A stretch of DNA of 64,000 bases from Psychrobacter sp. FME6 (GTDB lineage Bacteria; Pseudomonadota; Gammaproteobacteria; Pseudomonadales; Moraxellaceae). Shown here piece by piece: positions 2,913-25,674 of the stretch (the stretch's first letter is position 1; the number at the start of each line of letters is the position of its first letter). The notes under the pieces are model-generated. The model ran no database searches, had not been told where the DNA came from, and saw nothing but the letters and a program-made list of their open reading frames with translations. The position numbers and the translations under genes were made by a program. The DNA is taken from the NCBI RefSeq assembly GCF_014861365.1, contig NZ_RRYW01000004.1:1-64000 (forward strand), given 5' to 3'.

Positions 2913-4151
2913 TTATTTACGCCCACGTTTCCAACTAAAGCCCCAGTTAAAGGCTTTATCCATTTCTTGGTGACCTTTGAAATATTGGTTGATACGCTCA
3001 ACATTGATACTGCCTTGTTGGTTGACCAAACGCGCAATCGCACACATTGGCAGATTCCCCGTACCTTCTGTTAAACGGGTTTCAATCGGTGGCTGGTCTG
3101 GCACATGAATGGTGACTACCCCATCTGTCTGCGCCCAATTTGGCGCGCCTTCGTAGATGAAAGCAAAAATAAACACTTCCTCAATTTGCGACCACTGTTG
3201 GCCATTGATATCGAGCCATTCGCCACCACTGACTTGTCCCGTTCTGTCATCGGCACGCAAGCAAACATACGGCGCAGTTTGTAAGCTACCAAAGCGATCA
3301 CCCAGAGCCTGAATGAGGGTTTTTTCACCATTTTTCAGGTGAATCATGGCCCCAACATCAAGGTCAACACCACCAGCTTTATGCTGCTTAAACAAATCGC
3401 CTAATATGCCTTTTTTTGGTGCGGATTTATCGGCATTTGGGCGCTGATTCCAGTCTAAATTAACCCCAATTTTACCAAAATCATCTCGCTTCTTTAGATT
3501 GATGCTGGATTGGTTTTTGGTTAAGGTAACTTTGCTTAAATTAATCGAAGGACTAGCAGGAATGGGTGGTGGCGTGCTTGTTTGATTGGCACTACCCGCT
3601 TTTTGCGTATTGATTGGACGTTGAGTATTAATGGGTGGAACAGGCGCTTCATCAGCAATTTCAACACCGAAATGCTCAGATAAAGGTTTAAGGCCGCCTT
3701 CAAAACCTTGAGCAATAAAACGAAACTTCCAACTGCCTTGCCGACGATAGCATTCTGCTAAAATGAGGGCCTTTTCATTACGTCCAGCAGCAGCCAATTG
3801 ACAAGTCATCAATACTTGGCTGCCTTGTAATACTTGGATATCGACATCGCCAACTTGCGCGAGCGTTTGTGCGCTAGAAAACGCTAATGCAATTTTTTCA
3901 ATACTTGCAGGCTGCGTAGGTAAATTGATATCAAAAAACCCATCACTATCATGACCACGAAAGCTCACGCTACCGTCATCACTACGTGTCTGGCCATAAA
4001 ATATCATGTCGCCATCACCGCGTACTTTGCCATCGTTAGTCAGGCGATAAGCAGCACAGTCGATGGCGTTTTGGCTTAAAATACGAATGCTAATATTGTC
4101 CGTTGGCAGTGGCGCATTGGCACCAGCAATTAAGGCTTGAGGTTGGCTCAT
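2913..4151 (-). CDS. terA: TerA family protein with two TerD-like domains
   Basis: This 412-residue protein has an N-terminal TerD-like domain (about 1-170, including DCAAYRL, a VRGDGDMIFYGQ segment and GQGFEGGL-type text), a Pro/Thr/Asn-rich linker (about 175-205) and a C-terminal TerD-like domain with GVDLDVGAMI. It ends with the TerA signature around 'EMDKAFNWGFSWKRG'. TerA is a cytoplasmic partner of the Ter proteins whose biochemical role is unsettled. The acidic metal loop is weaker than in TerD and TerZ, as is usual for TerA. The start is set at the ATG at 4151, six bases after AAGGA; an in-frame TTG five codons upstream overlaps that ribosome site and is rejected. It converges on terZ and diverges from the ATP-grasp operon. 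Confidence 0.9.
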   Translation of the reverse strand: MSQPQALIAGANAPLPTDNISIRILSQNAIDCAAYRLTNDGKVRGDGDMIFYGQTRSDDGSVSFRGHDSDGFFDINLPTQPASIEKIALAFSSAQTLAQVGDVDIQVLQGSQVLMTCQLAAAGRNEKALILAECYRRQGSWKFRFIAQGFEGGLKPLSEHFGVEIADEAPVPPINTQRPINTQKAGSANQTSTPPPIPASPSINLSKVTLTKNQSSINLKKRDDFGKIGVNLDWNQRPNADKSAPKKGILGDLFKQHKAGGVDLDVGAMIHLKNGEKTLIQALGDRFGSLQTAPYVCLRADDRTGQVSGGEWLDINGQQWSQIEEVFIFAFIYEGAPNWAQTDGVVTIHVPDQPPIETRLTEGTGNLPMCAIARLVNQQGSINVERINQYFKGHQEMDKAFNWGFSWKRGRK

Positions 4152-10392: not shown

Positions 10393-10423
10393 CACTAAGC
10401 ACTAAGCACTAAGCACTAAGCAC
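10393..10423. repeat. 7-bp tandem repeat, four copies
   Basis: CACTAAG is repeated four times without a break and overlaps the stop codon (TAG on the minus strand, 10416-10418) of the alpha/beta hydrolase. The stop lies in the unit closest to the gene, so changes in copy number would alter only the downstream sequence unless the first unit is lost. Confidence 0.85.
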
Positions 10424-21566: not shown

Positions 21567-22208
21567 CTATAAGCAATCAAGCCAACCCACTGGTAAATGC
21601 GCCAAATCCGCTGGTTCATCGATGTCGGGTAGCGGCTCTAATAAAGCTAACGACCAGTTTAAGGCAGCGATGCGCTGCTGAGTGATCGATGCGACGCTCG
21701 CGGTGCTCCATTCAATATCTGAAAACAAACTCGCCTGCTCTCGTTTAAACCCAAACAGCACATACCCCCCATCTAAAGCGGGAATCATCACAGCATCGTG
21801 CGGCTCTAATTGCTGCGCGGCTTGTTTTAGTTTGGTGGCACTCAGACTAGGGCAATCAGCCCCCATCAACAGTACATTATCAAACTTAACTAACGCTTGC
21901 TGACTGGCAGTAAACATACGAATACCCAATTCGCCTCCAACCTGCGCTGACCATCGCAATGACTCGGATAGCTCAAGCGTCTGCCAGCAAGGATCAGACG
22001 GTGCTGGACTGACACATAGCTCAACGTTATAGCCAGTCGCTATCGCTTGCTCAATGCTATGTATTAGTAACTTGCGCGCCATCATCGCCGCCCCTGCAAT
22101 ACCAAGAGCCGGCTGCAAACGTGTTTTTGCCATGCCCTCAGCTGGGAATTTGGCAAAGATGATAATTAGCGTTGAGTCATTACTTTTAAGTTGCTTATCT
22201 ACAGGCAT
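21567..22208 (-). CDS. TIGR04282-type glycosyltransferase (arsenosugar cluster)
   Basis: This 213-residue protein begins 'IIIFAKFPAEGMAKTRL', the nucleotide-sugar loop of the TIGR04282 family (CofC/MobA-like GT-A fold), and has GADCPSLSATKL near 108-119 and ALDGGYVLFG near 137-146. In the family it is linked to arsenosugar biosynthesis with a TIGR04283 glycosyltransferase and ArsS, which both lie just upstream on the same strand. The actual donor and acceptor are unknown. The 116-base gap to the upstream gene holds a short repeat. It converges with the phosphorylase gene. Confidence 0.87.
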   Translation of the reverse strand: MPVDKQLKSNDSTLIIIFAKFPAEGMAKTRLQPALGIAGAAMMARKLLIHSIEQAIATGYNVELCVSPAPSDPCWQTLELSESLRWSAQVGGELGIRMFTASQQALVKFDNVLLMGADCPSLSATKLKQAAQQLEPHDAVMIPALDGGYVLFGFKREQASLFSDIEWSTASVASITQQRIAALNWSLALLEPLPDIDEPADLAHLPVGWLDCL

Positions 22209-23048: not shown

Positions 23049-24023
23049 TTAAATAACGCTATCTTTTTCTTCTAAGGAGCCACCACAACTGCTACCTTGG
23101 CCCGCTGTACAACCATAGCAATGATCACCGATAGCGATATCGTCACCACTAGGATGCTGAGTCAGTAAGTCTCGTAAATGACGGCGCGACTTATTGGGCA
23201 CTGGCATCTCTAGTTGCTGATTAAAATCGCAATCGAACAATTCACCCAACCAATTGACACTTATCGTCTCACGGCACATCACCTCTTTTAAATTCTCAGC
23301 CTCATAGCTCGCTTTGAGCAAATCCATGTACGGATGAAACTCATTTTTGGCTAATAGTACCGCGCCAAAACGCTGAATGGGCATATTAGTTAATGCAAAC
23401 AATTGATTGAACTCAATATCGAAATGTTGTTTTAGCTCGTGCTTATAATCTGCTTCTAATTGCTGCTGATCAGGTGGTAACGTAGCGCCTTGTGGGTTAT
23501 AGACGAGGTTTAGAGTGAGATTTGAGCCAGACTTACCATAACCCAGCGCATTGAGCTTATGTAGCCCTAAAATACTGTCATCAAAGGCACCTTTGCCGCG
23601 CTGCTTATCCACGTTTTTGAGCGAATAACACGGCAAAGAAGCAATAATTTCTACTTGGTTATCTGCTAAGAACTGGGCCAAACCCTCAAACCCATCTTCC
23701 ATTAAAATCGTTAAATTGCAGCGATCGATCACTTTGACACCTAATGCCCGCGCCGCTTTAACCAAATACTTAAAATCTTCGTGCATCTCAGGTGCGCCGC
23801 CAGTCAAATCCAGCGTATGAATACCTTGTGCCTGTAGCACTTTTGGTATCAGCTCAACCAATTCACGCGACATCATCTCTGTGCGATAAGGGCTAGCCGC
23901 CACGTGACAATGCACGCAGGACATATTACATAAGTAGCCCATATTAACTTGTAATACCGTCAATTCGCGACGTTTGATCGCAGGAAAATCGGTGAACTCG
24001 AGTAATTCAATGGTAGATTTCAT
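23049..24023 (-). CDS. arsS: Arsenosugar biosynthesis radical SAM protein ArsS
   Basis: This 324-residue radical SAM protein has the SAM cluster Cys32, Cys36, Cys39 (CNMSCVHC), LDLTGGAPEMHEDF (Gly-Gly SAM-binding) and a C-terminal Cys-rich end, CYGCTAGQGSSCGG, that holds an extra cluster. This is the ArsS (rSAM_SeCys-like) layout. In arsenosugar-making bacteria ArsS adds the ribosyl part of SAM to methylated arsenic. The methyltransferase ArsM is not nearby, so the arsenic role is inferred from the family. An in-frame TTG 11 codons upstream is rejected in favour of ATG at 24023. It is translationally coupled to the TIGR04283 gene. Confidence 0.9.
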   Translation of the reverse strand: MKSTIELLEFTDFPAIKRRELTVLQVNMGYLCNMSCVHCHVAASPYRTEMMSRELVELIPKVLQAQGIHTLDLTGGAPEMHEDFKYLVKAARALGVKVIDRCNLTILMEDGFEGLAQFLADNQVEIIASLPCYSLKNVDKQRGKGAFDDSILGLHKLNALGYGKSGSNLTLNLVYNPQGATLPPDQQQLEADYKHELKQHFDIEFNQLFALTNMPIQRFGAVLLAKNEFHPYMDLLKASYEAENLKEVMCRETISVNWLGELFDCDFNQQLEMPVPNKSRRHLRDLLTQHPSGDDIAIGDHCYGCTAGQGSSCGGSLEEKDSVI

Positions 24024-24166
24024 AAAAGTATAGAACCCAGTTGGTTTAAGAGCCAATTTTTATAGTACGTCTTAAAAGATAAGAAGGATGACTTTATACC
24101 TGCTGTCTTATTAATATATAACCATATTAAAGTTTATCTAATCAATAATATTTGATTATATCGCTT

Positions 24167-25462
24167 TTATTTGGCATTGATAAAGCGCTTATCAATGTAT
24201 CGTTTGAGAGTCCAAACCCATCGACCTTGTAAACTATACTTACCCCAACTGCCGATGGCGTACTTATCGCCGCAAGAGAGTAAATATAACGTACGCTTTT
24301 TTGGCTCATAGCTTTGCAATGGCTCATAGCTTTGCAGGGGCTCATCTGCCAAATATGCCAATAGATTATCAGCTTCTACAATACCGCCAAACACGGCATG
24401 CACGCCAGAGTGCGCCATATCTTGATCAACACGCGTACATACATCGCCAACGGCAAATACGTTAGGGTGCGAGGTACTCTGCTGCACACGATTGACCGCT
24501 ATAAACCCATTGTCTATGGTTGCAATATCGGTATGCGCTGTCCATGCTGATCCTGTGACACCAGTAGCAGCAATGACAGCATCAACTGGCAAAGACGTCT
24601 GTGATGATTGCTGTGAAGAATGCTCAAACGAGGAAGTTGATGATGAGTCTGACAGCAGCAACCGCCCTTCAGCAAAGCCGATGGCTCTTGCAAAAACGAC
24701 TTCAATATCATGGCGTTTAAGCTGACCAATGACACGCTTTCTAAAACGATTATCAAATCCAGACAATAAATGCTCACCGCAGACCAAATAGGCTTGGTGA
24801 CTGGGGTGAATCTGCTGCAATATAACCTGCGCTGCCATCACTAATTCCATCGCCGCAGCGCCAGCACCAACGATAGCCAGTCGGTAATGGGTTGTTTGCT
24901 TTGCCGCCGCAATGATTTGTTGCCACTGCCGCGCAAAGTAATGTAACGGCCTGATAGCAATAACACCTTTTGTATCGGAGGTCTGTTTATAAATATTCTC
25001 TTTATCAGTGCTTTCTTTATCAATGCCCTCTTTATCAGCGATTTCTTTGTCAAAACGATGACGCTTGTTGGTCTCTAACCAGTCTAGATTGGTGTCAGCG
25101 CCCGTATTTAAGGACAGCACGTCATAATCATAGTTATAATAACAACCATAGCCAGCACCGCATGGTTTGTTGCCACTGGTGATGACTGTGCGAGAAGTAG
25201 CATCCACTTTCACTATCGGACGTTGAACAAAGCGCACACCTGCTCGCAAACAAAGCGACTTTACATCAATACAGATATCATCGAGTTGATAATGTCCCGC
25301 CATCCAACCAGGCAACATACCTGAATAAATCGTCTGTGGCTGCTCTGTTATCAAAGTAACATCAGTATTGATAAATATTGCATCGTCTGCGCGCTCATTA
25401 CTAAGGCGGCGTAACAAGCCAATATGAGCATGCCCCGCTCCTGCTAATAACAGTTTTTTCAT
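24167..25462 (-). CDS. FAD-dependent pyridine nucleotide-disulfide oxidoreductase, SelD-associated type
   Basis: This 431-residue flavoprotein begins LLLAGAGHAHIGLLRRL (FAD-binding GxGHAH form) and has IYSGMLPGWMAGHY. A second nucleotide site is LAIVGAGAAAMEL, and the end of the FAD domain is VFAVGDVCTR. These match the Nterm_to_SelD family (NDH-2-like), often near ArsS and glycosyltransferases. The electron partner is unknown. It contains two lineage-specific repeats: DKExx four times near 138-157, and PLQSYE twice near 394-405. The start codon region is triplicated at the DNA level (see the repeat at 25452-25497). The arsS gene lies 143 bases downstream in the same orientation. Confidence 0.85.
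   Translation of the reverse strand: MKKLLLAGAGHAHIGLLRRLSNERADDAIFINTDVTLITEQPQTIYSGMLPGWMAGHYQLDDICIDVKSLCLRAGVRFVQRPIVKVDATSRTVITSGNKPCGAGYGCYYNYDYDVLSLNTGADTNLDWLETNKRHRFDKEIADKEGIDKESTDKENIYKQTSDTKGVIAIRPLHYFARQWQQIIAAAKQTTHYRLAIVGAGAAAMELVMAAQVILQQIHPSHQAYLVCGEHLLSGFDNRFRKRVIGQLKRHDIEVVFARAIGFAEGRLLLSDSSSTSSFEHSSQQSSQTSLPVDAVIAATGVTGSAWTAHTDIATIDNGFIAVNRVQQSTSHPNVFAVGDVCTRVDQDMAHSGVHAVFGGIVEADNLLAYLADEPLQSYEPLQSYEPKKRTLYLLSCGDKYAIGSWGKYSLQGRWVWTLKRYIDKRFINAK
24990..25055. repeat. 15-bp in-frame tandem repeat inside the flavoprotein gene
   Basis: Four units of about 15 bases encode Asp-Lys-Glu-x-x on the minus strand (DKEIA, DKEGI, DKEST, DKENI). Unit length is a multiple of three, so copy-number change would keep the frame. 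Confidence 0.8.
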
Positions 25463-25497
25463 AGCTGGTTTTTCATAGCTGGTTTTTCATAGCTGGG
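25452..25497 (-). repeat. 14-bp tandem triplication of the start-codon region
   Basis: On the minus strand CCAGCTATGAAAAA is repeated three times. The three ATGs are at 25490, 25476 and 25462. The first two each open a five-codon frame, MKNQL, whose TGA overlaps the next ATG as ATGA; only the third opens the flavoprotein (MKKLLLAG). The best ribosome site (AGGAATGGA, around 25499-25510) is placed for the first ATG. Confidence 0.9.
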
Positions 25498-25674
25498 TTA
25501 TCCATTCCTATAAGCCTATTATTTGAGCATTAGGTAACGATTTTGTTATAGAGCCGCTTACACAAAGCAGACAACTACACAAATACGTTTGACCGTATAG
25601 GGCTTTGCCGTTAAATTGGTCATAATATCTATTTGAATATATAAATTTATTAAATGATCTTTGAGGATAGCACG

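Follow-up and report, generated by a model that had tools for sequence, protein, structure and literature searches.

The locus

The window analyzed here is a stretch of 64,000 nucleotides from Psychrobacter sp. FME6 (positions 1 to 64,000 of contig NZ_RRYW01000004.1). The genome it comes from has 3.36 Mb in 268 contigs. The features which concern us are listed in Table 1. The main gene codes for a pyridine nucleotide-disulphide oxidoreductase, which reaches the Pfam cut-off for its domain. Its best NCBIfam match is TIGR03169, with 256.8 bits, under the curated cut-off of 310. Arsenosugar-type genes follow on the same strand. The upstream neighbour is a divergent gene coding for an amidohydrolase, and the oxidoreductase gene is thus the first on its side.

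Table 1. Features of the oxidoreductase locus. Positions are those of the window; an asterisk in a peptide marks a stop codon.
Feature	Position	Strand	Basis
Array, three perfect 14-bp units CCAGCTATGAAAAA	25455..25496	-	Sequence, tandem repeat scan
Minicistron 1, ATG1 at 25490, MKNQL*, TGA/ATG2 overlap ATGA	25473..25490	-	Sequence
Minicistron 2, ATG2 at 25476, MKNQL*, TGA/ATG3 overlap ATGA	25459..25476	-	Sequence
ATG0 (25505-25503) to ATG1, in frame, at a distance of five codons	25488..25505	-	Sequence
Strongest candidate ribosome site AGGAATGGA, positioned for ATG1 (-5.9 kcal/mol)	25501..25509	-	Anti-SD pairing
Main gene from ATG3, 431-aa pyridine nucleotide-disulphide oxidoreductase (Pyr_redox_2)	24167..25462	-	Profile search
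Next gene, arsenosugar-type radical SAM protein ArsS (TIGR04167)	23049..24056	-	Profile search
Arsenosugar-type glycosyltransferase TIGR04283	22325..23047	-	Profile search
TIGR04282 family protein, arsenosugar-type gene group	21567..22208	-	Profile search

The oxidoreductase gene is present in 38 of the 105 Psychrobacter genomes of our genus set, which contains one genome per species. All 118 residues which are invariant across 36 relatives are kept in the array-bearing protein, and gene decay may be ruled out on this count. The protein has 431 amino acids, the compared part of the 36 relatives has 364-409. Inside the gene lie three more tandem repeats (24302-24345, 24599-24624 and 24986-25052), whose periods (12, 15/30 and 18) are each divisible by three. 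In another genome, G015, only a stretch corresponding to residues 2-55 of the oxidoreductase lies before arsS (L065, C2:318125-318286).

A tandem repeat over the start codon

The start of the gene is formed by 3.0 perfect head-to-tail copies of a 14-bp unit, as the earlier note on this DNA had reported from the sequence. With up to two mismatches, the unit is found at five places of the window, of which three are perfect and lie side by side; the maximum in 100 shuffles is three. The flanks of the array do not extend the unit, so no microhomology is left at its boundaries. Each unit contains an ATG, and the last one, ATG3, opens the 431-codon gene. The two others open identical minicistrons, each with a stop codon overlapping the next ATG, exactly as described in the same note. 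A fourth ATG is found upstream of the array. With three units, this ATG0 reads MDNPAMKNQL* and ends at the stop of the ATG1 reading frame. The two added copies represent 28 bp, which places both ATG0 and ATG1 out of the frame of the gene. The gene itself remains open because every copy supplies an ATG, and it is clear from the sequence that the last one is always in frame: The claim that any number of units keeps the gene open holds.

The array is the only perfect repeat (at least two copies, period 7-40) over the ATG start of an ORF of at least 100 codons in 258 kb of its own genome and 400 kb of another genome, G090; the same scan found one 7-bp array over a TTG start. The array sequence AGCTATGAAAAACCAGCTATG, with up to two mismatches, has no match outside the array and is present in 1 of the 105 Psychrobacter genomes. 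A search of plasmids gave no match. A search for promoter-like sites found none on the minus strand, and the single match on the opposite strand is at chance level. Elsewhere in the window, the heptamer CACTAAG is repeated 4.4 times at 10393-10423, in a position beyond an ORF or just at its edge.

Initiation sites

The four ATGs differ in their pairing with the anti-SD sequence: -3.3 kcal/mol for ATG0, -5.9 for ATG1 and -0.8 for both ATG2 and ATG3, compared with a median of -4.2 for 46 ORFs of the window. The ribosome site thus suits ATG1, as previously proposed. In other Psychrobacter species, the candidate ATGs of the oxidoreductase gene have values from +1.4 to -4.0 kcal/mol, with -2.3 in the largest clade. 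Since the ribosome sites of these relatives are also weak, direct initiation at ATG3 would be possible.

In both minicistrons the stop overlaps the next start as ATGA, which agrees with the spacing (-4 or -1 nt) of ORFs coupled by termination-reinitiation and is a geometry favourable to this process. Their five sense codons correspond to the 15 nt reported to be sufficient in E. coli. For two gene pairs of this species, the final 15 nt of the upstream gene were enough for reinitiation, a threshold determined with the terminal part of a longer, fused ORF, and a gap of 14 nt brought a loss of 40-80% (PMC10666635).

The position of the start in homologous genes gives some indication about the origin of the array. 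In 26 of 36 distinct Psychrobacter homologues, an ATG precedes the conserved AGAGHAH motif by 11 or 12 codons. None of the 36 starts six codons before the motif, the position of ATG3; three betaproteobacterial homologues do begin there. With a single unit, ATG0 would be placed 11 codons before the motif, reading MDNPAMKKLLLAGAGHAH. Because most Psychrobacter starts lie at 11 or 12 codons and none at six, the unit most likely arose near codon 6 of an older gene beginning at ATG0. It is also possible that ATG1 was the older start, because its ribosome site is stronger than that of ATG0 (-5.9 and -3.3 kcal/mol) and the betaproteobacterial genes start at six codons. The array had been presented as a triplicated start codon. 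An ATG-bearing unit is indeed present three times, but the spacing of homologous starts suggests that the older start was probably ATG0.

Oxidoreductase leaders in related species

A second genome, G072, has an imperfect 14-bp duplication in its oxidoreductase leader (L005), which codes for MKKYL* and is joined to the homologous start through an ATGA overlap. These two genomes are the only ones with a coupled unit among 37 Psychrobacter homologues. Coupled minicistrons of up to 15 codons are found upstream of 37 of 421 genes, and on this comparison we have rejected the idea that they are enriched at the oxidoreductase as such. Some relatives have imperfect in-frame duplications of 15 and 18 bp near the start of this gene. 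Genomes G081 and G082 (L031 and L029) differ by one 11-bp unit ATGAACCAATA, about 20-55 nt upstream of the oxidoreductase start, and are otherwise identical across 170 aligned bases; the copies of this unit encode MNQ*. A short-window tandem score of at least 6 is found in 9 of 37 oxidoreductase leaders, related pairs included, compared with 23 of 423 start regions. The raised scores are only suggestive, since these leaders are A-rich.

Trains of 14 nt upstream of other genes

The pattern ATGA N10 ATGA N10 ATGA has matches in 85 of the 105 Psychrobacter genomes. The reversed pattern is likewise common, and a periodicity of 14 nt is thus general in itself. A pattern with variable gaps was found at 339 places, about 100 of which were listed; they do not enter any of our counts. 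The array genome contains six distinct trains, and three of them end at the ATG of a real gene: the oxidoreductase (431 codons), moeA (431) and holC (161).

For holC, we have set aside 15 of the 105 genomes, whose matches were divergent or split, and no start was found in 11 of the 90 leaders fetched. An ATG exactly 14 nt upstream of the start is present in 40 of the 79 parsed leaders, in runs of one to four (leader L142 has one unit), and the other 39 have no unit. The distance between the pepA stop and holC is 7 nt in 23 of the 79 leaders. Among 51 gaps of 8-80 nt, 38 equal 7 or 8 modulo 14 (19 each), with sizes of 21, 35/36, 49/50 and 63/64 nt, though close relatives account for most of the 16 gaps of 36 nt. 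Of 46 distinct spacers (9-80 nt), 21 have a complete stepping path from the pepA stop to holC, compared with 1.7 expected from shuffled spacers, an excess which is no proof of selection, as shuffling also destroys repeats; the other 25 spacers have no such path. In the array genome the gap is fully tiled by stops and starts which overlap: the pepA stop is followed by MS*, MKTNL*, MKTN*, MKISL* and HolC (L134/L130, G000:C152:4635-4680 and upstream).

For ispD (TIGR00453), we have read 31 loci, from the best 30 of 104 genomes and L326. An ATG at -14 is found in 26 of them, which have as many as three units, and the remaining five have an in-frame ATG 24 nt upstream. For moeA, the unit is present in 20 of 29 parsed leaders from the best 30 of 104 genomes, one of which could not be parsed. 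The moeA train of the array genome is broken in its third unit, which reads ATGG. This genome has two moeA-like genes, G000:C87:11926-13218, with the 14-nt train, and G000:C226:8887-10176. Over the holC, ispD and moeA leaders the number of units goes from zero to four, and parsimony on quick trees of 30 species each indicates at least 11 changes in unit number at holC and at least 7 at ispD.

We have also considered the other genera of the family. A family-wide search for holC returned loci from Psychrobacter only, and it was replaced by a comparison of ispD: none of 21 parsed loci, from 30 chosen genomes of other genera, has the 14-nt unit.

Some trains are found in other contexts. An array of MIRKL* units, which does not lead into a gene, contains 14 ATGs in G052 (L325) and four in G010 (L324). 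In the array genome, an 8-bp array (L340, G000:C68, about 3065-3100) has five ATGs in ATGA-coupled MSI* units, the last ATG opening 20 codons.

Properties of the units

A premature in-frame stop, in codons 2 to 4, is found in none of the 65 distinct units of holC, ispD and moeA, a count which, like the others for these three genes, overstates independence and frequency: The genes were picked by a pattern search and their units are kin by descent. The two other frames of the same units have stops in three and nine cases. As a control, 4 of 51 units from trains opening no gene have a premature stop; they were drawn from the fetched trains without a gene, a subset of the 85 matching genomes. In 55 of the 65 units, TTA or CTA stands at codon five, and we have called these units MxxxL* for this reason.

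As self-duplication would predict, the units have more bases in common with the start of the gene they precede than shuffled units do. Out of 11 bases, the average likeness is 6.9 for holC (3.4 when shuffled) and 5.3 for ispD (3.2), with a slight difference for moeA (4.3 against 3.0, seven pairs). The array in the window has 8 of 11, a value without shuffling.

A general rule for leaders of 14 nt must be rejected. Among 1033 genes of three genomes, coupled upstream ATGs are found at 5 nt (15 genes), 8 nt (6), 11 nt (13), 14 nt (9), 17 nt (7) and beyond, with no peak at 14 nt. Three of the nine 14-nt cases are the oxidoreductase, holC and moeA.

Discussion

We propose that a stretch of 14 bp carrying an ATG was expanded in tandem in this lineage only, which gave the array. 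As 14 equals 2 modulo 3 and each copy has its own ATG, all copies but the last would become five-codon ORFs with a TGA over the next ATG. Ribosomes would enter at ATG0 or ATG1, near the ribosome site, terminate at the ATGA overlaps and reinitiate stepwise until they reach ATG3, even though ATG2 and ATG3 have hardly any ribosome site of their own; some of them may start directly at ATG3. Translation of the minicistrons and any effect on expression are predictions. The oxidoreductase array may be considered as one case of the Psychrobacter MxxxL* trains directly upstream of holC, ispD and moeA, in which units are gained and lost between species with the coupling geometry retained. The earlier interpretation had this geometry right, but it overlooked ATG0. 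The reading we prefer, with a probability of about 0.58, is a recurrent, frame-tolerant duplication of start codons which is read by termination-reinitiation, with some contribution from the coupling. The geometry, the recurrence, the changing number of units, the lack of premature stops and the intact main protein are the observations on which it is based. A stronger proposal would see the 14-nt trains as an initiation device specific to the genus, which loads ribosomes and leads them by serial reinitiation onto holC, ispD, moeA and, newly, the oxidoreductase; its units would arise as copies of the start itself, and selection would retain the coupled frame alone. We put it forward tentatively, as less likely than not.

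The preferred reading must be weighed against neutral, tolerated duplication, which we take seriously even if we do not favour it. Short tandem duplications near Psychrobacter starts would be frequent, and whenever one copied the ATG, the last ATG would still stand before the gene. Those equal to 2 modulo 3 (coupled) or 0 modulo 3 (in-frame extension) would be harmless and persist, ATG3 would be used directly and the minicistrons would be idle. This would agree with the lack of a genome-wide preference for 14 nt, with the weak ribosome sites used by the oxidoreductase relatives, with the imperfect in-frame duplications in some of them, and with the fact that 17 of 19 further trains picked from the genus list open no ORF of 100 codons. 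Start duplications, of which ten have periods equal to 0 modulo 3, two to 2 and none to 1, also fit a filter against overlap out of frame, a point weakened by the mid-gene control, where 43 of 46 duplications equal 0 modulo 3. On the other hand, the units of holC, ispD and moeA have diverged and still contain no premature stops, the holC spacers are clustered at 14-nt steps, and the ispD units are found in most Psychrobacter loci and in none of those parsed from other genera of the family.

Two other explanations start from the repeat itself. The array was originally seen as a tunable leader, in which slippage within a population alters the number of units and sets the level of expression. The perfect copies are consistent with this, as are the different unit numbers between species, the single 11-bp copy which distinguishes G081 from G082 upstream of the oxidoreductase, and the MIRKL* arrays of G052 and G010. 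Simple-sequence contingency loci have tandem repeats at the 5' end of genes, and our array has the same location, but the gene is open at any unit number, so there is no on/off switching of the frame. The copies are also few for a hypermutable locus, and genes coding for enzymes are not the usual targets of contingency. We consider such a switch improbable. The second explanation is frameshift rescue: The array would have displaced the old start, and ribosomes from ATG2, which is one base out of the main frame, would regain it by -1 slippage at GAAAAAC, with no reinitiation. The frame of the gene is in fact open for eight codons upstream of ATG3, back to the TGA in the first unit. Nevertheless, the heptamer G AAA AAC is poorly suited to slippage and ribosomes have ATG3 at their disposal, which makes this the least credible of the explanations considered, with very little probability.

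Start-codon duplication read by termination-reinitiation, the reading we favour, may be compared with several known systems. Overlapping genes coupled by termination-reinitiation (ATGA, TGATG) have the same overlap of 4 or 1 nt between stop and start, and five codons give the same 15 nt as in the two E. coli pairs (PMC10666635). The known cases join real genes, in contrast to the Psychrobacter array, with serial five-codon ORFs before one gene and reinitiation predicted from their arrangement. The nearest precedent we have found are the mycobacterial interspersed repetitive units (MIRUs), as described in PMC12548453: They are apparently mobile elements, present in many mycobacteria, which insert at start codons, and their inner ORF is coupled to the gene at -4 nt. 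The minicistrons of the array are likewise coupled by ATGA at a start codon. In contrast to a MIRU, the unit has only 14 bp, resembles the start of its own gene and has no match elsewhere in the genome. We have therefore rejected a MIRU or any other dispersed element, which should be present in several copies: There is no second genomic place. The same source indicates that a short leader ORF may bring the ribosome to the start of a coupled gene (PMC12548453). Our array is similar in having short upstream ORFs, and it differs in that they are serial, derived from a repeat and changing in number. The literature matches listed (titles and the beginnings of abstracts) include no work about start-codon trains of 14 nt or about leaders of this kind from Psychrobacter, which does not prove that there is none.

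By itself the array is a modest curiosity. Its recurrence upstream of holC, ispD and moeA makes it a testable form of coupled leader, linking a mutational process, the tandem duplication of start codons, to a translational one, serial reinitiation. There is a practical aspect for the annotation of start sites, as the homologous starts of genes with trains can be shifted or buried in the train. In addition, related species with zero to four units ahead of one and the same gene provide a natural series for tests of how often a ribosome can terminate and restart in a row.
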